Positions 48,754 through 59,671 of a stretch of 64,000 nucleotides of DNA are shown one piece after another. A program made the position numbers and the translations under genes. Source of the stretch: Bacteroidota bacterium (GTDB taxonomy: Bacteria; Bacteroidota; Bacteroidia; B-17B0; Aurantibacillaceae); the NCBI GenBank assembly GCA_025362395.1, contig JANYGK010000115.1, positions 1 through 64,000 of the forward strand. Direction: 5' to 3'. Position 1 is the first letter of the stretch; each line of letters starts with the position of its first letter. The notes beneath the pieces are model-generated. The model searched no databases. It was given only the letters and a program-made list of their open reading frames with translations, and was not told the DNA's origin.

Positions 48754-50241
48754 TTAATTAGCGTCAAGGTGTTTTAGTTTCTTTAAATTATCAAATTCTA
48801 ATTTATAAAAGATCCATCCGAATAATAGCAATAACACATTATTAAAAAATAACTTTAATAAAATGCTTTGCATATCCGAATAAAACGTTGAAATAAAATA
48901 AAATCCTAGGGCAAGGCCTGTAAATACAAAAATACTGCGAAGATTATAGTTGACCGGGTAATATTTTTGTCCGAGCAAATACGATACAACCATCATGCTG
49001 CTATAGGAGGCAAAGGTGGCCCAGGCACAAGCCATGTAACTGTATTTGGGAATAAACATAAAATTAATAACCAATGTAATAAGCGCTCCAAAAATGGTAA
49101 TGTAAGCGCCGAACTTTGTTTGCCCGGTAAGCTTATACCAAATTGATAAGTTCCAATACACGCCCACACATAAGTTAGCCATTAATAAAATAGGTACCAC
49201 AGCTAAACCAACTCTATAGTTTTCACTAACGGCTTTTTGCAGCCATGGCAGGTTCATCATGGTTCCCAAAAACAAAAACAGGCAAAATAAAATGTAATAT
49301 TTCATTACTACAGCATTCAGCTTTTGAGAATTCTTATCCTTGGCATTATTAAAAAAGAACGGTTCTGCCGCATATTTAAAAGCCTGTGTAAAAATAGCCA
49401 TCAACATAGCGATCTTATAGCAATTACTATATACGCCTACTTCATTATCCGCAATATTGCCCGGCAATAAATAATTTAAAACAAGGCGGTCAAACGTTTC
49501 ATTGATCATGCCTGCCAAACCAAGCACTAATAAAGGCAATGCGTAAAAAAACATTTTACGCCAAAGCACTTTATCAAATACATACTCAAAGCCTTTAAAC
49601 TCGTTTGCCAATAAAGCAATGGAAACCAAATTGGCAATTAACTGAGCTAAAAAAGCATAGCCAATACCGACCTCAGGCTTATACAGGCTTGCAAAAAAAG
49701 AATCGTCACCATGTTCAAGCGCACGTTTACATATAACGAAGTAAAAAATATTAACGGCCAAATTAACCATCATGTTTGCAAACTTAATAACCGCAAAGCG
49801 TTTGGCGCTGTTGGTTAACCTGAGTCGCGCAAAAGGAATTGCTGTTATGGTATCGGTAGCAATAATAAGCACACACCATATTACAAAATTACCGTGCCCG
49901 TGTTGTTTAATAAGATCAGCCAACGGGGCGGAAAATAAAATCAATACTAATGATAAGCCTGCTGTACTTACTAAAAGTGAGATTAAGGCCGTAGAGTAAA
50001 CCCGTTCTTTTTGCTCCGATTTATTAACAAAATTAAAAAAAGCAGTTTCCATGCCATAGGTAAAAATAATATTCATGAAACTGATGTACCCGAAAAAAAC
50101 CGCGTTTGGGGCTAATGCAGCGGGTTCTTTAAAAATATAAGTAAGTACAAATGTAAACAGGTAACCAATAAACCGGGGCAGCACATTTCCTAAACCATAA
50201 ATGGCGGTTTGTGAGGCGAGTTTCTTGAGCGGGTTAGACAA
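48754..50241 (-). CDS. Polysaccharide biosynthesis flippase (Wzx/MurJ-like)
   Basis: 495 residues, about 14 membrane segments. The start ([26 protein letters not shown]) and the phrase [30 protein letters not shown] are typical of Bacteroidota oligosaccharide flippases of the MOP superfamily. It probably moves a lipid-linked sugar across the inner membrane. It is next to the LPS-related genes rfaE2 and UPF0104, so a cell-envelope glycan role is likely. Confidence 0.87.
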
Positions 50242-50258
50242 ATCAGTGTATTAAACCG

Positions 50259-50266
50259 CAAAAATA
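50259..50266 (-). promoter_or_regulatory. -7 promoter box for flippase-dut
   Basis: The minus strand reads TATTTTTG (TAnnTTTG), 17 bases before the flippase start. The match lies in an A-rich stretch and could be chance. Confidence 0.38.
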
Positions 50267-50351
50267 AAGTTTATTCAGCTTGCAGTAATTCCTTGTAACC
50301 ATAAGATATTAACGGGCAAAAGTGTCTAATTATAATAGATTCGGTTTTTTG

Positions 50352-50846
50352 CTATTCCGAACGTAATTTTTCGATGAGCATTGTAGTAGAAAAGCCTTGT
50401 ACTAAAGGAATAGTTTTAACTGACCCGCCTTTAGCTTTAACGATATCATAACCAACAATATCTTCTGCTTTATAATCGTTGCCTTTTACCAATATATCCG
50501 GTTGAACCAGCTTTATAAGGTCATAAGGTGTATCTTCATCAAATAAAATAATGGCATCAATACATTCAAGTGCTGCTAATACAAAAGCTCTTGTTTCTTC
50601 ATTATTAATAGGCCTTTCGGGCGATTTACCTAAGCGTTTAACGGAAGCATCGGTATTTAAGCCAACTATCATTTTATCGCCGAGGTCGCGTGCATGACAT
50701 AAATATTCCACATGGCCGCGGTGTAAAATATCAAAACAGCCGTTTGTGAAAACTATTTTTTGATTCGCCTCATTCCACATTTTCAAAAGTGCCGGTAGCG
50801 ACTCTTTTGAAATAAATTTTTCTGATAATTTTTTATGATACAACAT
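50352..50846 (-). CDS. rfaE2: D-glycero-beta-D-manno-heptose 1-phosphate adenylyltransferase
   Basis: 164 residues. Nucleotidyltransferase with VFTNGCFDILHRGHVEYL (HxGH-type), GLNTDASVKRLGK and the end ILVKGNDYKAEDIVGYDIV. It transfers AMP to heptose 1-phosphate in ADP-heptose synthesis. It is a free-standing domain rather than the HldE fusion. Overlaps the 3' end of the UPF0104 gene by 14 bases. Confidence 0.93.
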   Translation of the reverse strand: MLYHKKLSEKFISKESLPALLKMWNEANQKIVFTNGCFDILHRGHVEYLCHARDLGDKMIVGLNTDASVKRLGKSPERPINNEETRAFVLAALECIDAIILFDEDTPYDLIKLVQPDILVKGNDYKAEDIVGYDIVKAKGGSVKTIPLVQGFSTTMLIEKLRSE

Positions 50847-51852
50847 CTTCCGGTTTATTTTTATTTATGATTGGAAGTATAATAAGGCTTAATATGCCTA
50901 ACACCATAATTAAAATGAACTGGGAGGTCCATGACATCCAGGGGAAAGCAACGGCTGAAATCCTTTCCACGTGATACGTAGAGAGTAATAAAGCCGTAAT
51001 AATTGCAGGGTAGGCCCCTAGGCCTCCCGGGGAAAATACAACGCCAAAAGTGCCAAACAATAACAAAACAAGGCATTCGGATTGACCAAGCCGGGATGTG
51101 CCGCTAAACGCGAAGAAACAGGCATATAGACTATAAAAATAAGCAGCCCAAATAGCAAAGCTTAAAACGATGAACTGAAATTTCTTATCAATGTCCTTTA
51201 CGGAACTTAATCCTTTAGCAAAGCCTTTAATAATAGTTCCGAATTTACCGGTCAATGCTTTTGAAATTTTTTTTCGGACTAAAAAAAGTCCGACGACCAT
51301 CCCTAAACATATTGTAATTAAAATAACGACTTGTGTAGGGTGTTGAGCCATACTACTCAGTTTTAATTTAAGCGGATCAATTATATATTGCGCAGCCAAA
51401 TTACTTAACTGTGTAAACTGTGCAAAAAGAGTAAGCACAAATATTACGGTTAATAAAAGCAGGTCCACGATGCGTTCGGTTATAACAGTACCCAATGCTA
51501 TTTCAAAAGGCACTTTATCATATTTGGTAACTAAGGTGCAGCGCGTTATTTCTCCCATACGGGGCAAGCCGTAATTTGCAAAATAGCCTACCAGTACAGC
51601 TCCAAGTGCATCCGGAAGCTTCACTGAATAGCCCGCAGGCTTCAGCAAGTAATTCCACCGAAATGCTCTTAAAAAATGACTAAATAAAGAAATAAGTATT
51701 GAAATAATAACCCAAAAATAATTGGCTGTTTTAAATGAGTTAAGGATTTTATCCTTTTCAGCCCAAACAGAGCGCAATGATAGCCAAGTCAGAAGAATTC
51801 CCACACTAAGTAAAACAACAAATTGTATAATAGATTTAGTACGTTTGCTCAC
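50833..51852 (-). CDS. Lysylphosphatidylglycerol synthase-type flippase domain (UPF0104)
   Basis: 339 residues with about eight membrane segments. The family phrases RAFRWNYLLKPAGY, ALGAVLVGYFANYGLPRMGEITR and GTFGVVFSPGGLGAYPAII fit the integral membrane domain found in MprF and in free-standing proteins. It likely moves a lipid. It is followed by the overlapping rfaE2 gene, so an envelope role is likely. Confidence 0.85.
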   Translation of the reverse strand: MSKRTKSIIQFVVLLSVGILLTWLSLRSVWAEKDKILNSFKTANYFWVIISILISLFSHFLRAFRWNYLLKPAGYSVKLPDALGAVLVGYFANYGLPRMGEITRCTLVTKYDKVPFEIALGTVITERIVDLLLLTVIFVLTLFAQFTQLSNLAAQYIIDPLKLKLSSMAQHPTQVVILITICLGMVVGLFLVRKKISKALTGKFGTIIKGFAKGLSSVKDIDKKFQFIVLSFAIWAAYFYSLYACFFAFSGTSRLGQSECLVLLLFGTFGVVFSPGGLGAYPAIITALLLSTYHVERISAVAFPWMSWTSQFILIMVLGILSLIILPIINKNKPEDVVS

Positions 51853-51856
51853 ATTC

Positions 51857-52207
51857 TTATTTTAAACCGTTGGTTTCAGTATTAGGAAAAACTACCCATG
51901 GCCTGAAGGATTTAGCTTCTTCAAAATCCATATCGGCATAGGAAATAATGATAACCACATCGCCTAAGCTTACTTTCTTTGCAGCAGGCCCGTTTAAACA
52001 AATTACTCCGCTTTTTCTTGCCCCTTTAATAACATAGGTGATAAATCGTTCGCCGTTATTTTTATTTAAAATATGTACCTGTTCGTTTTCTATTAAGTTA
52101 GCGGCATCCATCAAATCTTCATCAATCGTAACACTGCCTATATAGTCTAACTCCGCTTGTGTTACGGTTACACAGTGTAGTTTCGACTTCATTACTTGAA
52201 TTTGCAT
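51857..52207 (-). CDS. panD: Aspartate 1-decarboxylase
   Basis: 116 residues. Makes beta-alanine for pantothenate/CoA. The start ATG at 52207 gives the canonical position of the self-cleavage site (Gly24-Ser25 in YIGSV), whose Ser becomes the pyruvoyl group. Lys9 and other conserved residues, such as the phrase [14 protein letters not shown], are present. Next gene begins 5 bases later. Confidence 0.96.
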
Positions 52208-52445
52208 TTTCATTATACGTTATTTTAAGCTGTGAAAATTCCTCATTAATAGGATGAACAATTTACGCGTTAAATGTACTAAATTACTATGATAGTTAAC
52301 CATAGGCGGCTAAACACAAAAACTAATACAACACCGGTTTCACACCGATTATATTGTTTCCCCATAACTCCAATTTTAGCTTATTGGCTTATATTATGGG
52401 ATAAATTCACTTTTAAATGTGCCCAAAATAAGTTTTAATATTTCC

Positions 52446-52476
52446 TTGCAAACATACCTTAAATGTGGTACTTTTG
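52446..52476 (+). promoter_or_regulatory. Promoter of the suf operon
   Basis: TTG (52446-52448) is followed after exactly 20 bases by TACTTTTG (52469-52476), a complete Bacteroidota promoter. The leader would be about 60 bases. The rest of the 336-base panD/suf region (52208-52543) shows no gene or hairpin that I can support. Confidence 0.7.
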
Positions 52477-52543
52477 TGAGGCGTTTAGATTTAATCTAAA
52501 TAAGAATAACACATAAGTAATTAACTATTAAATACTTAACAAA

Positions 52544-52870
52544 ATGATTACAGTTAGCAATGCGGCAAAAGAACATGCCATACAATTAATAAAAGACGAG
52601 CATAAACCTGATGATACATTTATTCGTGTCGGTGTTGACGGTGGAGGTTGCTCGGGTTTAATGTACAACCTGGTGTTTGATAATTTAATGAAAGAAGGTG
52701 ACCAGGTATTTGAAGATAACGGCGTTAAAGTGGTTGTTGACAGAAAAAGCTTTTTGTACTTAGTAGGAACGGAGCTTGATTACACAGGCGGCTTAAACGG
52801 AAAAGGCTTTACATTTAAAAACCCTAACGCTTCGCGTACTTGCGGTTGCGGAGAATCTTTTTCAGTATAA
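52544..52870 (+). CDS. A-type iron-sulfur assembly protein (IscA/SufA/ErpA)
   Basis: 108 residues with the three conserved cysteines: DGGGCSGLMYN and the C-terminal TCGCGESF. Carries Fe-S clusters to apo-proteins. First gene of the suf operon, downstream of a good promoter. Confidence 0.92.
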   Translation: MITVSNAAKEHAIQLIKDEHKPDDTFIRVGVDGGGCSGLMYNLVFDNLMKEGDQVFEDNGVKVVVDRKSFLYLVGTELDYTGGLNGKGFTFKNPNASRTCGCGESFSV

Positions 52871-52884
52871 TTAAAGTTACGAAA

Positions 52885-52957
52885 GTTAAAAGTTATGAAA
52901 GTTGTTTTAAATTCAACTGTAACTGTATAAAACTTTCTAATTCTTCAAACTTTTAAC
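52885..52957. repeat. Inverted repeat in the sufA-sufB spacer
   Basis: GTTAAAAGTT (52885-52894) and AACTTTTAAC (52948-52957) are perfect arms; inner GAAAGTT/AACTTTC copies add to it. It almost fills the 94-base spacer. The segment AAGTTATGAAAGTT has its exact inverse complement before sufD at about 57087-57100. Confidence 0.5.
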
Positions 52958-52964
52958 TAAAGAA

Positions 52965-54416
52965 ATGGCAAACGAAATATTAGAAGAACATATTCAGAAC
53001 GACTATAAGTGGGGCTTTACTACGGATATTGAAGCTGATGAGGCTCCCAAAGGATTGAATGAAGATATTATCCGATTTATTTCTGCAAAGAAAAATGAAC
53101 CGGAGTGGATGTTGGAGTTTCGCCTGAAAGCGTTTCGTAACTGGCAGAATATGATAGAGCCCGAATGGGCACATGTATCTTACAAAAAACCGAACTTCCG
53201 GGATATTATTTATTACTCTGCCCCTAAACCAAAAAAAGAATTAGCGAGCCTTGATGAAGTAGATCCTGAATTACTAAAAACGTTTGAAAAGCTTGGCATC
53301 TCGCTTGAAGAACAAAAACGCTTAAGCGGTGTACAAAGCAATATTGCCGTAGATATAGTATTTGACAGCGTTTCCGTAAAAACAACTTTTAAAGAAACAC
53401 TTGCCGAAAAAGGAATTATTTTTTGTTCATTCAGCGAAGCCGTACAAGATCATCCCGATTTAGTAAAAAAATATATGGGCATGGTAGTTCCGCCAACCGA
53501 TAATTTTTATTCCGCTTTAAATTCTGCCGTTTTTACTGACGGTTCGTTTTGTTATATCCCTAAAGGTGTTCGCTCACCTATGGAATTATCGACTTACTTC
53601 CGTATTAACGCCAGTGGTACCGGGCAATTTGAAAGAACATTAATTATTGCCGATGAAGATTCGTATGTGTCTTATTTGGAAGGATGTACTGCACCGCAAC
53701 GGGACGAAAATCAACTTCATGCGGCCGTAGTAGAAATTATCACTCATAAAAACGCGGAAGTAAAATACAGTACTGTACAAAATTGGTATCCCGGTGATAA
53801 GAACGGAAAAGGCGGTATTTTCAATTTTGTTACCAAACGCGGTTTATGTTTGGAGGATAACTCTAAGATCAGCTGGACGCAAGTAGAAACAGGCTCTGCG
53901 GTGACATGGAAATATCCTTCCGTTATTTTAAAAGGAAATAATTCGGTAGGCGAATTTTACTCTGTTGCCGTAACCAATAACTACCAACAAGCCGATACAG
54001 GAACTAAAATGATCCATATCGGTAAAAACACACGTTCCACTATTATTTCGAAAGGAATTTCTGCCGGCTTTAGCAATAACAGCTACCGTGGCTTGGTTCA
54101 AATTAAAAAAGGCGCAAGTAACGCGCGTAACTTTTCACAATGCGATAGCTTGCTGATGGGCGATAAATGCGGCGCTCACACCTTTCCTTATATCGAAATA
54201 AAAGATAAAACGGCAATTGTTGAACATGAAGCCACTACCAGTAAAATTGGTGAAGATCAATTATTTTATTGCAAGCAGCGCGGCATTGATAATGAAAAAG
54301 CCATCGGCTTAATTGTAAACGGTTATTGCAAAGAAGTATTAAATAAGTTACCCATGGAATTTGCCGTGGAAGCACAAAAATTACTGGCCATTAGTTTAGA
54401 AGGAAGCGTGGGGTAA
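52965..54416 (+). CDS. sufB: Fe-S cluster assembly scaffold SufB
   Basis: 483 residues. The scaffold core is clear ([50 protein letters not shown]-type phrase, [35 protein letters not shown]). Works with SufC and SufD as SufBC2D. Upstream of an inserted membrane gene and sufC. Confidence 0.97.
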
Positions 54417-54440: not shown

Positions 54441-56195
54441 TTGAAACAACTTTTTTATAATTCATCTTTTTTTATCTTACTTTTTATAGCGGTATCAAGT
54501 GTTACATTGATTGTTTATGATTGGATGGCGCGGGCATCCACACAGAATTATATTAAAATTGACGGCGACGGAAAAGATTATTATTCTTACCTAACCTCTG
54601 CCTTTATTACAAAAGATCTTGCTCATTTAAAACCCAATAATAATTTTGTTGTTGAAACTCCTACAGGTAATATAAATATGCACCCTGTTGGTGTAGCTGT
54701 TTTACAAGTACCCTTTTTTGGATTAGGGTATTTTGCCGCATATCTTACTCAACAAAAATTAGACGGCTATTCAACTCCTTTTCAATTAGCGGTTAGTTTA
54801 GCGGCATTATTTTATGTGTTGCTCGGCATATTTTTTATTCATAAAACCCTTATAAACACAGGCTTTGACAAAAAAATAATCTTTGCAGCATTAATCTGTT
54901 TGTTTTTTGGAACTACCCTTTTAAATTATACGATCACTGAACCTTCTATGTCGCATGTCTATTCTTTTTCGTTAATATCTGCCTTTATTTATTACAATCA
55001 AAAATTATCTAAACAGTTTTCTACACGCAAAGTATATGCACTTGCTTTTATATTTGGGTTAATACTTTTAGTACGGCCGGTTAATGTATTGACAATTCTT
55101 TTGTTGCCTTTCTTTTACAATTCATTCAGTGAATTTAAAGATCAGGTAAAACGGTTTGTAAATAACAAAAAAGCATTCTTCGCTTCAACCCTCATTGTTG
55201 CTGCTATTTTCAGCATTCAATCCATTGTATGGTTTATTCAAACGGGGCAGTTGTTTCAATCCGGTTATAAAGGAAACGGTTTTTATTTTTTACATCCTCA
55301 AGTATTTTCTATGCTGTTTGGCTTTAAATCCGGGATCTTTATCTATACCCCTTTGTTCTTTCTTGCATCAGCAGGTATTTATTTCATGTATAAAAATAAC
55401 CGTTTTAAAGCCGGTTGCTTGATCCTATTTTCCCTGCTATTACTTTATGTATTTTCATCATATTGGGGTTGGACTTACTTCGATGGTATAGGGACACGCA
55501 CCGTGGTTGACTTTTACGCGTTAGTTGCTATAGGTTTGTGTTATGTATTGACGGCTGTTAAACCCGGGAAAACAAAATGGATCGTAGGATCAACAGCAAC
55601 TATTTGTGTGTGTTTTAATTTGATAATTTGCTATCAATACAAAGAAGGCATTATTCCAACCAACGGAATGAATTTTAATAAATTCGAATATGTATTCTTA
55701 AAAACATCTTCCGGTTATAAAGATGCATTAGGCGGATGTGACGATCTAGAGCCCTATTCAAAGGGATTTAAGAAGCCTTTTATAACTTATAAAAACACAT
55801 TCGATACCGAAAAAACACATTTCTACAATTACAATAAAACAGAAGGAGGCGTAGCCTACAAAACGGATAACCTCAATATTGATTCCAGGAAAATTCATGT
55901 AAAAATTAATTTGGACAGGCTTGAAATGGTTCAAAATGCTACTAAAAATGTCCTAATGGCGCTTTCTTTAAACGATATTGAAAATAATTGTAAGGCTTGG
56001 CAAACATTTAAATTAAACGATGTGCCTTCTAAAATAAACTATAGCAATTGGAAACATTATGATTACGGAGTAAACATCATAGCTGATATTACACAAACGG
56101 ATAAGCTTTCTGTATTTATATGGAATGTAGAAAAAAAACAATTCGGAATAGATAATTTTAAAATAGAGCTGTATGATTACGGCCACATTAATTAA
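54441..56195 (+). CDS. Large membrane protein, GT-C glycosyltransferase-like
   Basis: 584 residues from TTG 54441 (a TAA lies 15 bases upstream in frame and no ATG fits). Ten to eleven membrane segments span residues 10-400; the first loop is long and includes a DGKDYYSYLTS phrase after the first segment, similar to GT-C enzymes with an Asp-based active loop. The last about 160 residues are hydrophilic and would form an extracytoplasmic domain. It lies between sufB and sufC with gaps of 24 and 8 bases, so it shares the suf transcript. No link with Fe-S assembly is visible. Glycosyl transfer is an inference from topology and loop only. Confidence 0.65.
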   Translation: MKQLFYNSSFFILLFIAVSSVTLIVYDWMARASTQNYIKIDGDGKDYYSYLTSAFITKDLAHLKPNNNFVVETPTGNINMHPVGVAVLQVPFFGLGYFAAYLTQQKLDGYSTPFQLAVSLAALFYVLLGIFFIHKTLINTGFDKKIIFAALICLFFGTTLLNYTITEPSMSHVYSFSLISAFIYYNQKLSKQFSTRKVYALAFIFGLILLVRPVNVLTILLLPFFYNSFSEFKDQVKRFVNNKKAFFASTLIVAAIFSIQSIVWFIQTGQLFQSGYKGNGFYFLHPQVFSMLFGFKSGIFIYTPLFFLASAGIYFMYKNNRFKAGCLILFSLLLLYVFSSYWGWTYFDGIGTRTVVDFYALVAIGLCYVLTAVKPGKTKWIVGSTATICVCFNLIICYQYKEGIIPTNGMNFNKFEYVFLKTSSGYKDALGGCDDLEPYSKGFKKPFITYKNTFDTEKTHFYNYNKTEGGVAYKTDNLNIDSRKIHVKINLDRLEMVQNATKNVLMALSLNDIENNCKAWQTFKLNDVPSKINYSNWKHYDYGVNIIADITQTDKLSVFIWNVEKKQFGIDNFKIELYDYGHIN

Positions 56196-56203
56196 TAAAA
56201 TAA

Positions 56204-56977
56204 ATGAGCAATACTATGATATCAATTAAAAATTTACACGCGAGCATTGGCGATAAAGAAATTTTAAGAGGAATAAATTTAGAAGTAAAAGCCGGCGAAA
56301 TCCATGCCATCATGGGCCCTAACGGCTCAGGAAAATCAACATTATCAAGCGTTTTAGCGGGTCGTGAAGATTATGACGTAACAGAAGGCGAAGTTATTTT
56401 TAACGGTAAAAATTTACTGGATCTTTCAACGGAAGACCGCGCCAGGGAAGGATTATTTTTAGCGTTTCAATACCCGATAGAAATTCCGGGAGTGAGTAAT
56501 ATTAATTTTTTACGTACGGCGTTAAATGAAATTCGTGCTTACCATGGAAAAGAAGAAATGCCCGCTAAAGATTTTTTAGCCCTTGTAAAAGAAAAACAAA
56601 AATTAGTGGAATTGGATGTAACGTTAACAAGCCGTAGCGTAAATGAAGGCTTTAGCGGTGGTGAGAAAAAACGAAATGAAATTTTTCAAATGGCAATGCT
56701 CAATCCTAAATTAGCAATATTAGATGAAACAGACAGCGGGTTAGATATTGATGCGTTAAGAATTGTAGCTCAAGGCGTAAATGCTTTAAAAACGAAAGAT
56801 AATGCAACCATTTTAATTACACACTATCAGCGCTTGTTGGATTATATAGTTCCTGATTTTGTGCATATTTTATATAAAGGCCGCATTGTAAAAAGCGGGG
56901 GTAAAGAATTAGCACTTGAGCTTGAGGCTAAAGGATATGACGAGATTAAAACTCAGTTCGAAAGTTCAGAAAGCTAA
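56204..56977 (+). CDS. sufC: Fe-S assembly ATPase SufC
   Basis: 257 residues. ABC-type ATPase: Walker A GPNGSGKSTL, signature FSGGEKKRNEIFQM, Walker B LAILDETDSGLDID, switch His in ITHYQRLLDYI. Drives SufBC2D. Starts 8 bases after the inserted membrane gene. Confidence 0.97.
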   Translation: MSNTMISIKNLHASIGDKEILRGINLEVKAGEIHAIMGPNGSGKSTLSSVLAGREDYDVTEGEVIFNGKNLLDLSTEDRAREGLFLAFQYPIEIPGVSNINFLRTALNEIRAYHGKEEMPAKDFLALVKEKQKLVELDVTLTSRSVNEGFSGGEKKRNEIFQMAMLNPKLAILDETDSGLDIDALRIVAQGVNALKTKDNATILITHYQRLLDYIVPDFVHILYKGRIVKSGGKELALELEAKGYDEIKTQFESSES

Positions 56978-57075
56978 TTATTATTTGAACTCGAAAGTGT
57001 TAGAAACAAGTAAAACAATACGTGGATTTATTTCTTAATTAAGAACGCAAAAGAAACAAAGTATAGAAAACAAAA

Positions 57076-57108
57076 AACTTTCTAAACTTTCATAACTTAA
57101 AAACTTTC
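57076..57108. repeat. ACTTTC-rich repeats before sufD
   Basis: Three copies of ACTTTC (57077, 57086, 57103) in the 140-base spacer. The stretch AACTTTCATAACTT here is the inverse complement of a stretch in the sufA-sufB spacer. No hairpin with a T run. Confidence 0.4.
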
Positions 57109-57117
57109 ATAACCAAA

Positions 57118-58398
57118 ATGATAGCAGAAAAATCACAAGTCACCCGGCAACTGATGGAAGGTTTGCAGAAACTTTCCTCAAAAATTGCATTTATACCTGA
57201 TGAAGAAATTGTATCAGCCATACGACAACTGGAAGAAAAAGGACTTCCGAATAATAAACATGAAGATTACAAATACTGTAATATAGAATCGTTTATTCGC
57301 AGAGAATTTAAAACGTTGGATCAAACATTTAATCCGTTAGATCTTAAAGTTATTGAAGCCTATAAATTAGAGGATGCTATTAATTTAGTAGTATTAAACG
57401 GAAATTACAGTGAAGCATTAAGCGAAAAAGTAATTGCTAAAGGCATTACTATTAAATCACTGAATGAAATTACTTCATCTGAAAAAAACTATATTGCAAG
57501 TCAAGCAAAATCTTCTTCAGACTCTTTAATCGCCCTGAATACCGTGTTCTGCGGGAACGGCCTGTTTTTTAAAGTGGAAAAAGGAAATGTAATTCCCATG
57601 CCCGTACACATTATTTATCTGAATAATAACAGCGCTCCCTCTTTATCAAATGCCCGTAATTTTATTCATATAGAATCCGGAGCAGAGTTAACGTTGATTG
57701 AAAGCTTTATAAATAGTGGTGGAGGCAAAATTTTCTCAAATTATGTCAGTGAAAAATTAGTAGATGAAAATGCTAAACTGACTTGCTATACATTTCAAAA
57801 TGAAGGTCCTTTATCTTATTCTGTGCATACAAACGCCGTAAAGGTAAATACGTATGCGCATTACAGTAACACTACTATTACATTAAGCGGCGAATTGGTT
57901 CGTAACAACCACAATATCGAATTAGCGGCAGCATCTTGCGAAGCACACCTAAACGGGCTATTTATTACTAAAGGAACTCAGTTGGTAGATAACCACACAT
58001 TGATTGATCATCAGATGCCGCACTGCGAAAGCAACGAATTATACAAAGGCATTGCAAACGGTAAATCAATCGGTGTGTTTAACGGGAAGATCTTTGTAAG
58101 AAAAGATGCACAAAAAACAAACGCGTATCAAAGCAGTAAAAATATTTTGATGAGCGACGACGCAACTATTAATACAAAGCCACAGTTAGAAATTTACGCC
58201 GATGATGTAAAATGCTCTCACGGAACCTCAACAGGAAAAATAGATATGGACGCTTTATTTTATTTAAAAGCGAGAGGTATTGGTGAAGAGAACGCCCGAA
58301 AGCTTCTGTTACAAGCCTTTGCGGAAGAAGTGATCAATAAAATAGAAGTTGATTCTTTAAAAGAAAGAGTGCTTCATTTGTTTGAGAAAACATTATAA
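57118..58398 (+). CDS. sufD: Fe-S cluster assembly protein SufD
   Basis: 426 residues. Paralogue of SufB in the same scaffold: HEDYKYCNIESFI at the start, and ELAAASCEAHLNGLF, VDNHTLIDHQMPHCESNELYKGI, DDVKCSHGTSTGKID near the C-terminus. 140 bases after sufC and 52 before sufS. Confidence 0.95.
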   Translation: MIAEKSQVTRQLMEGLQKLSSKIAFIPDEEIVSAIRQLEEKGLPNNKHEDYKYCNIESFIRREFKTLDQTFNPLDLKVIEAYKLEDAINLVVLNGNYSEALSEKVIAKGITIKSLNEITSSEKNYIASQAKSSSDSLIALNTVFCGNGLFFKVEKGNVIPMPVHIIYLNNNSAPSLSNARNFIHIESGAELTLIESFINSGGGKIFSNYVSEKLVDENAKLTCYTFQNEGPLSYSVHTNAVKVNTYAHYSNTTITLSGELVRNNHNIELAAASCEAHLNGLFITKGTQLVDNHTLIDHQMPHCESNELYKGIANGKSIGVFNGKIFVRKDAQKTNAYQSSKNILMSDDATINTKPQLEIYADDVKCSHGTSTGKIDMDALFYLKARGIGEENARKLLLQAFAEEVINKIEVDSLKERVLHLFEKTL

Positions 58399-58450: not shown

Positions 58451-59671
58451 ATGTTTGATATAAATAAAATAAGATCCGATTTTCCTATCCTTAACAGAAC
58501 CGTTAATAATAAGCCGTTGGTTTATTTTGACAACGGCGCTACCGGGCAAAAGCCAAAACAAGTTATTGATGCTTTGGTAAATTATTACAGCAATCAAAAC
58601 AGTAACATTCACAGGGGTGTGCACACCTTGAGTCGTGAAATTACGATTGCTTACGAAGAAGCGCGTCAAACCATTGCTTCCCACATTAATGCAAAACAAG
58701 TTTCGGAAATTGTTTTCACAAAAGGAACAACAGAATCTATCAACTTGGTAACCTATTGCTTCGGAAAAATTGAATTGAATGAAGGGGATGAAATCTTGAT
58801 TACCGAGATGGAACACCACAGTAATATTATTCCATGGCAAATAGTGTGTGAAGAAAAAAAAGCAGTTTTAAAATACATACCTATTAATGAGGCCGGTGAA
58901 TTAATTTTAGAAAAGCTTCCTCAATTAATTACATCCAAAACTAAGCTGGTTGCGTTTACTCATATTTCCAATACATTGGGGACTATTAACCCGGTTAAGG
59001 AAATGATTGTACAAATTCGTTCTCTGTGTAAAGCAGCAGTACTAATTGACGGTGCACAGGCTGTACCGCATTTAAAACCGGATGTACAAGATTTAGACTG
59101 CGATTTTTACGTATTTAGCGGGCATAAATTATTTGGCCCTACAGGTGTCGGGATATTATATGCCAAACAACACTGGCTCGAAAAATTTCCTCCTTACCAA
59201 ACCGGCGGCGGCACTATAAAAACAGTTACTCTTGAAAAAACAGAATTTGCCGACCCTCCTTTAAAATTTGAAGCAGGAACCCCTCACATAGAAGGCGGTA
59301 TAGGCTTGGCAGCTGCAATTAGTTATGTAAACGCTATTGGTTTTGAAGCCATACAAAAACACGAAAATACATTATTGGATTATGCCACTAAAAAACTTTT
59401 AGAAATTGAAGACATAAGAATTTACGGCACATCAAAACACAAAACTTCTGTACTATCTTTTAATGTTGGCAACATTCATCCGTTTGATGTGGGTTCCATA
59501 TTGGATAAATATGGCGTAGCCATTCGCAGCGGCCATCATTGCACACAACCTATTTGTAAATTTTATAACATTCCGGGTACCATAAGGGCTTCTTTTGCAT
59601 TCTACAATACCGTGGAAGAGATTGATGTTTTTATTGCAGCGTTGAAAAAAGCGATCAGGTTGTTGAGCTAA
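58451..59671 (+). CDS. sufS: Cysteine desulfurase SufS
   Basis: 406 residues. PLP enzyme mobilising sulfur from cysteine. PLP lysine in FSGHKLFGPTGVGIL (about residue 224), active Cys in RSGHHCTQP (about 362), N-terminal YFDNGATGQKP and MEHHSNIIPW. No sufE gene follows in this window, so its sulfur acceptor is not shown. Confidence 0.97.
   Translation: MFDINKIRSDFPILNRTVNNKPLVYFDNGATGQKPKQVIDALVNYYSNQNSNIHRGVHTLSREITIAYEEARQTIASHINAKQVSEIVFTKGTTESINLVTYCFGKIELNEGDEILITEMEHHSNIIPWQIVCEEKKAVLKYIPINEAGELILEKLPQLITSKTKLVAFTHISNTLGTINPVKEMIVQIRSLCKAAVLIDGAQAVPHLKPDVQDLDCDFYVFSGHKLFGPTGVGILYAKQHWLEKFPPYQTGGGTIKTVTLEKTEFADPPLKFEAGTPHIEGGIGLAAAISYVNAIGFEAIQKHENTLLDYATKKLLEIEDIRIYGTSKHKTSVLSFNVGNIHPFDVGSILDKYGVAIRSGHHCTQPICKFYNIPGTIRASFAFYNTVEEIDVFIAALKKAIRLLS

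Follow-up and report, generated by a model that had tools for sequence, protein, structure and literature searches.

Why a gene for a membrane protein lies between sufB and sufC is the question raised by the SUF operon of the window, the 64,000-nucleotide stretch of Bacteroidota DNA analyzed here. Pfam and NCBIfam models place sufA, sufB, sufC, sufD, and sufS in a one-strand run on the plus strand. The first gene, sufA (positions 52544 to 52870), encodes an A-type carrier of the HesB/IscA family (PF01521, TIGR00049) and is followed by sufB (52965 to 54416; NF008773, 902 bits, and TIGR01980), sufC (56204 to 56977; TIGR01978, 366 bits), sufD (57118 to 58398; TIGR01981, 269 bits), and the cysteine desulfurase gene sufS (58451 to 59671; TIGR01979, 584 bits). 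The intervening gene, here called GT (54441 to 56195, plus strand), encodes a GT-C glycosyltransferase-like protein of 584 residues that is predicted to be strongly multi-span, and it is separated by 24 bases from sufB and by 8 bases from sufC. A sequence-only reading of this locus had described the split, the size and type of the protein, the common strand, and both gaps, and all of these details are correct; its suggestion that the insertion kept the operon working fits a same-strand insert with such short gaps.

The GT reading frame begins with TTG. Its first in-frame ATG is codon 29, within the predicted first membrane helix (residues 8 to 32), such that an ATG start would cut into this helix, and TTG, as a weak start, may hold down translation within a strong operon. 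In 12 of 29 suf-located copies, the start codon lying farthest upstream is TTG, a choice of start that is mechanical.

An AlphaFold2 model of the protein, built on a 30-row alignment (pLDDT, 88.2; pTM, 0.87; a prediction rather than a solved structure), has the multi-span GT-C fold, and Foldseek searches with it return PglB and other oligosaccharyltransferases (OSTs) as top matches. Residues 1 to 429 (54441 to 55727) make up the membrane GT-C module, for which VIA-align ranks ArnT first (5f15; Z score of 21.6 over 345 residues, rmsd of 4.0), with yeast OST (8agc) at a Z score of 21.5 and OST, PMT, and ALG enzymes near ArnT. The membrane fold is common to ArnT (GT83, which transfers aminoarabinose to lipid A), PglB, AglB, and Stt3, with most OST chains at Z scores of about 17 to 21.5, but the window protein is only about 11% identical to ArnT and the OSTs and differs in its C-terminal domain, a predicted jelly-roll beta domain (residues 439 to 584; 55755 to 56192), presumably periplasmic, that matches 2df7 (Z score of 10.1, 126 residues) and CBM22 4xup (Z score of 9.0, 121 residues). 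An invariant aspartate in the first outer loop occurs in ArnT and the OSTs as well as in the window protein, where G42-D43 of an IDGD motif is conserved in all 30 aligned rows and lies in the loop after the first helix, in keeping with the acidic first extracytoplasmic loop of GT-C enzymes. We take Asp43 (codon at 54567 to 54569) to be the candidate catalytic base, a role carried over from those enzymes.

The protein reaches no Pfam model at its cutoff and no curated family in Pfam or NCBIfam. Its membrane part is weakly similar to PF20176 (DUF6541; 22 bits, E value of 5.9e-5, below the gathering score of 29) and to NF047440 (LA_3751/LA_3752 "putative glycosyltransferase"; 33.4 bits, below the NCBIfam cutoff of 200). 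ArnT- and OST-type models of Pfam and NCBIfam give no match at an E value of 1, nor does a sequence search of solved structures at that threshold; PMT_2 (GT39; PF13231) does not match the window protein at an E value of 0.01 and weakly matches 5 of its 30 relatives. The earlier description of the product as membrane glycosyltransferase-like is borne out by the predicted fold (Z scores of about 21 with ArnT and OSTs), which supports its assignment as a GT-C-type glycosyltransferase, and by analogy with these enzymes it would transfer a lipid-linked sugar on the periplasmic face.

SufB is present in 81 of the 87 genomes of the window's family (f1). The search yielded 84 SufB matches, with downstream DNA retrieved at 78 places, and the sample was extended with the window and with stretches from G034 and G002, which were picked by the position of GT or a paralog. 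A single stretch carries both sufB and sufC in 76 genomes, and among these the junction holds GT in 28, another same-strand reading frame in 20, and nothing in 28; in a further four genomes, outside these 28, GT adjoins sufB or sufC on broken contigs (G034, G035, G117, and G054). GT, another gene, and an empty junction occur, respectively, in 4, 3, and 12 of the 19 genomes of genus g1, in 19, 8, and 7 of the 34 of g2, and in 4, 1, and 1 of the 6 of g8. The only g6 genome has GT, all seven g9 genomes and the only g7 genome have another gene, and the eight genomes of g3, g4, and g5 are empty at this site. The complete sufB-GT-sufC order is thus found in four genera of f1 (g1, g2, g6, and g8), and one g10 genome has the order GT-sufC.

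Beyond f1, GT occupies the junction in 1 of 20 genomes of family f21 (G429) and is absent from it in all 23 genomes from other families that were viewed with 1.5-kb flanks. A search of 395 genomes of the class places 11 of the best 30 loci at suf, all in f1 members or G429, with the remainder, the G075 copy and 18 weaker relatives, away from suf. Within f1, identity to the window ranges from 31 to 53% for GT copies and from 78 to 96% for SufB copies. When the literature was searched for suf together with Bacteroidetes or with glycosyltransferase, no paper turned up that describes this arrangement in its title or the opening part of its abstract, and in PMC11613949 the term is confined to the reference list.

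On balance, we think that GT is probably an accessory GT-C glycosyltransferase, a passenger in a permissive sufB/sufC slot and not a part of Fe-S assembly. Most likely, the protein would act at the inner membrane and, on its periplasmic side, move a sugar from a polyprenyl-phosphate carrier to a surface glycan, lipid, or protein, and the jelly-roll domain may aid acceptor binding. The gene would have entered the junction once, early in family f1, and would have been retained by being transcribed together with a vital operon that is probably regulated by iron; its inheritance appears to have been mostly vertical, with frequent losses and at least one in-place exchange between lineages (G006).

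Two elements upstream of sufA bear on expression. The first (52446 to 52476, plus strand, located by regular expression) matches TTG-N20-TACTTTTG, which we take to be a Bacteroidota-type promoter motif; there are six matches on the plus strand of the window, and the site is therefore weak by itself. The second is a palindrome, TTTAGATTTAATCTAAA (52484 to 52500), a putative suf operator that resembles a Fur box. When 3 to 6 bases are allowed between half-sites, the palindrome TTAGA-N5-TCTAA occurs no more than 200 bp upstream of sufA in 73 of 74 f1 genomes, against 0.4 expected from shuffling, and the rest of the loci contain two matches in 685 kb. The window has one match (0.08 expected), and the strict form has two sites in the whole genome, against none for the reversed control. 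The other genomic site (locus L206, at about 1500 to 1532) lies, by eye, just upstream of a 414-residue membrane-barrel-like reading frame. The Riemerella Fur box, ATTTAGAATTATTCTAAAT, which is reported along with EMSA on selected promoters (PMC5609570), is identical by eye to the window palindrome at 16 of 19 bases. The genome encodes one Fur-family protein. Since GT lies within the operon behind the Fur-box-like palindrome, it would be expressed with suf.

These features are what favor a functional tie, in which the cell alters a surface glycan upon iron or Fe-S shortage and GT resides in suf so that a Fur-type regulator governs both. The near-universal palindrome and its likeness to the Riemerella box, the single Fur-family protein, the second genomic palindrome before a membrane-barrel-like gene, and the long maintenance of GT at one spot all speak for it, and long retention at one place is equally expected under such a tie. 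However, the junction is empty in 28 of 76 genomes and holds other genes in 20, the palindrome is present with or without GT, and a close relative of GT lies outside suf in a glycan cluster of G075. In that genome (locus L039), the gene stands by eye between flippase-like and AsnB-like (asparagine-synthase-like) genes, with GT4- and GT2-like genes nearby, all of which appear to be glycan genes. We therefore regard a functional tie as possible but unlikely. The tie with Fe-S or envelope stress that had been proposed from the sequence remains hypothetical: an Fe-S role is at odds with a slot that is shared or empty, whereas iron-responsive co-expression is a fair hypothesis given the Fur-box-like site. 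At this locus, whether iron limitation is connected with surface glycosylation can be tested directly.

The passenger interpretation draws on the variety of genes found in the slot. Other suf junctions are occupied less often than sufB/sufC: 13 of 74 for sufA/sufB, 5 of 71 for sufC/sufD, and 3 of 60 for sufD/sufS. The sufB/sufC junction holds a 23S_rRNA_IVP four-helix gene in G001 (Pfam), an IVP gene of the g9 type in G043 (33.9 bits against a cutoff of 33.8), a BD-FAE esterase with a secretion tail in G013, RhuM and Fic in G047, ORF6N in G110, and a PMT_2 glycosyltransferase that stands beside GT in G045 and alone in G111. In other families, it holds a GIY-YIG protein (G144) and a secretory-lipase-like protein (G390, in f21). 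With two kinds of GT-C genes among its occupants, the slot could suit glycan genes in particular. An extension of this idea, which we find doubtful, is that sufB/sufC is a true cargo slot in which non-Fe-S genes, glycosyltransferases above all, are swapped in place under an iron-responsive suf promoter, with surface glycosylation being switched by iron via operon position alone. Under the passenger interpretation, an essential and highly conserved operon is the long-lived host of fast-evolving accessory genes at one junction, and it provides a natural setting in which to ask if the order of genes inside an operon has to be functional.

Genes for IVP-type four-helix bundles also occur elsewhere inside suf, for example at sufC/sufD in L051 and at sufA/sufB in L074, L087, L091, and L053. 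Such inserts resemble the intervening sequences of rRNA, yet they lie within an mRNA. The flanks of inserted reading frames of 100 to 190 residues are strongly complementary in 11 of 29 cases (RNAduplex z below -3, reaching -7), compared to 1 of 24 GT inserts below -3 (median, 0.18). Complementary flanks of the IVP type were rejected for GT; in the lone case (G020), the left flank includes coding sequence, the start having been set too far downstream. In the window, the sufA/sufB junction (52871 to 52964) has clustered GAAAGTT/AACTTTC repeats, with six AACTTT/AAAGTT matches against 0.14 expected from mononucleotide shuffling, and the sufC/sufD junction (56978 to 57117) has AACTTTC repeats, neither with a reading frame. 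By eye, the stretch from 56978 to 57117 is similar to the right flank that the IVP gene has at sufC/sufD in G003, and both window junctions are possibly empty or vacated IVP sites. A further insert, a nucleotidyltransferase-like gene of 156 to 157 residues, occupies sufA/sufB in 8 of 74 genomes (G008, G037, G042, G047, G048, G108, G109, and G116), assigned by DUF2204 at 21.9 bits in G008 and by likeness in the other seven.

The suf-located GT copies form one clade, with the non-suf copy of G075 nested within it (UFBoot/SH-aLRT, 100/100), in a tree from which the long-branched G055 was left out and in which non-suf rows were reduced to six (G075 and five related rows); a second GT tree, from a quick search, also has this clade. 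Trees with G075 outside the suf clade are rejected (P = 7.5e-6), and the sufB/sufC gap of G075 itself holds a 131-residue reading frame that resembles an IVP gene by eye. Distances among GT copies correlate with those among SufB+SufC (Spearman coefficient of 0.476, with none of 2,000 permutations as high), and the coefficient rises to 0.591 without G006 and G429. In the 5 scorable of 7 pairs, dN/dS is 0.096, 0.061, 0.105, 0.042, and 0.089 for GT and 0.007, 0.008, 0.016, 0, and 0.011 for SufB; values that are low but above those of SufB indicate that GT is under purifying selection yet evolving much faster. Its divergence is about 6 to 13 times that of SufB+SufC (for example, p-distances of 0.41 versus 0.067, 0.09 versus 0.008, and 0.28 versus 0.022), and its base composition tracks that of the suf genes of each host.

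The presence of GT requires at least 12 changes on the SufB+SufC tree, or 5 when only well-supported branches are counted; this tree keeps 116 of 123 SufB and 119 SufC rows, and among its labels the IVP of G486 is assumed from gap length and that of G080 is incomplete. Such changes, and a junction that repeatedly accepts other genes, could reflect repeated independent insertions of related genes rather than one insertion followed by losses and swaps. Against this, the suf copies are a single clade relative to the five related non-suf rows (100/100), GT and suf distances correlate, and a non-suf pool predicts common near relatives outside suf, where only that of G075 was found. Repeated insertion is already disfavored, and we judge it improbable. 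One old insertion with many losses and at least one in-place swap is the best fit because it accommodates the single clade, the distance correlation, the case of G006, and the 12 or more changes.

In G006, SufB and the operon belong to genus g1, but GT groups with the g2 copies. Grouping this GT with its own genus is rejected (AU test, P = 4.4e-8), as is grouping it with its own genus and G024 (P = 9.7e-48), and a change of lineage in place is clear for this gene. Scans of G006 revealed no recombination tract, nucleotide windows being without a breakpoint. An apparent SufC mosaic toward g2 in the same genome (6 of 10 diagnostic sites in a first scan) was dropped, the other g1 members G010 and G013 being alike in a fuller scan. 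In G429, GT groups with g8 (95/96) while SufB+SufC fall within f21, although a tree with its GT outside g8 is retained (AU test, P = 0.121). Mosaic operons formed by in situ gene displacement were reportedly described by Omelchenko et al. in 2003. In G006, as in such operons, the operon is intact and one gene, its tree in conflict with those of its flanks, has changed lineage at the same position, but the gene that was swapped is an accessory passenger rather than a functional part of the operon, and a homologous recombination tract was not found. In situ displacement within operons is also known from repABC (PMC2783167). As to carriers, there are no GT relatives among 50,697 phage records or among the 38 pattern matches in viral contigs, and one relative among 72,556 plasmid records (31.5% identity over 58%).

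A direct Fe-S role, with the protein serving as a membrane anchor or helper of the SufBC2D complex, has the position between sufB and sufC in its favor and nothing else. It is very improbable because relatives without GT (48 of the 76 with sufB and sufC) keep suf intact, and it also conflicts with the predicted sugar-transferase fold, the presumed periplasmic domain, and the many-fold greater divergence of GT. This locus cautions against guilt-by-association annotation, such as naming GT an Fe-S factor. A recent strain-specific insertion or an assembly error, both raised in the sequence-only reading, is scarcely conceivable, since a check of relatives finds the arrangement in 28 of 76 f1 genomes, including G100 within a single 4.6-Mb contig, and GT has a single origin, spans four f1 genera, g10, and G429, is only 31 to 53% identical to the window copy within f1, and follows the suf genes of each host in base composition.

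The divergent neighbors of the operon (48754 to 52213, minus strand) include, by eye, look-alikes of a polysaccharide flippase, an RfaE2-type nucleotidyltransferase, a UPF0104-type membrane protein, and PanD.
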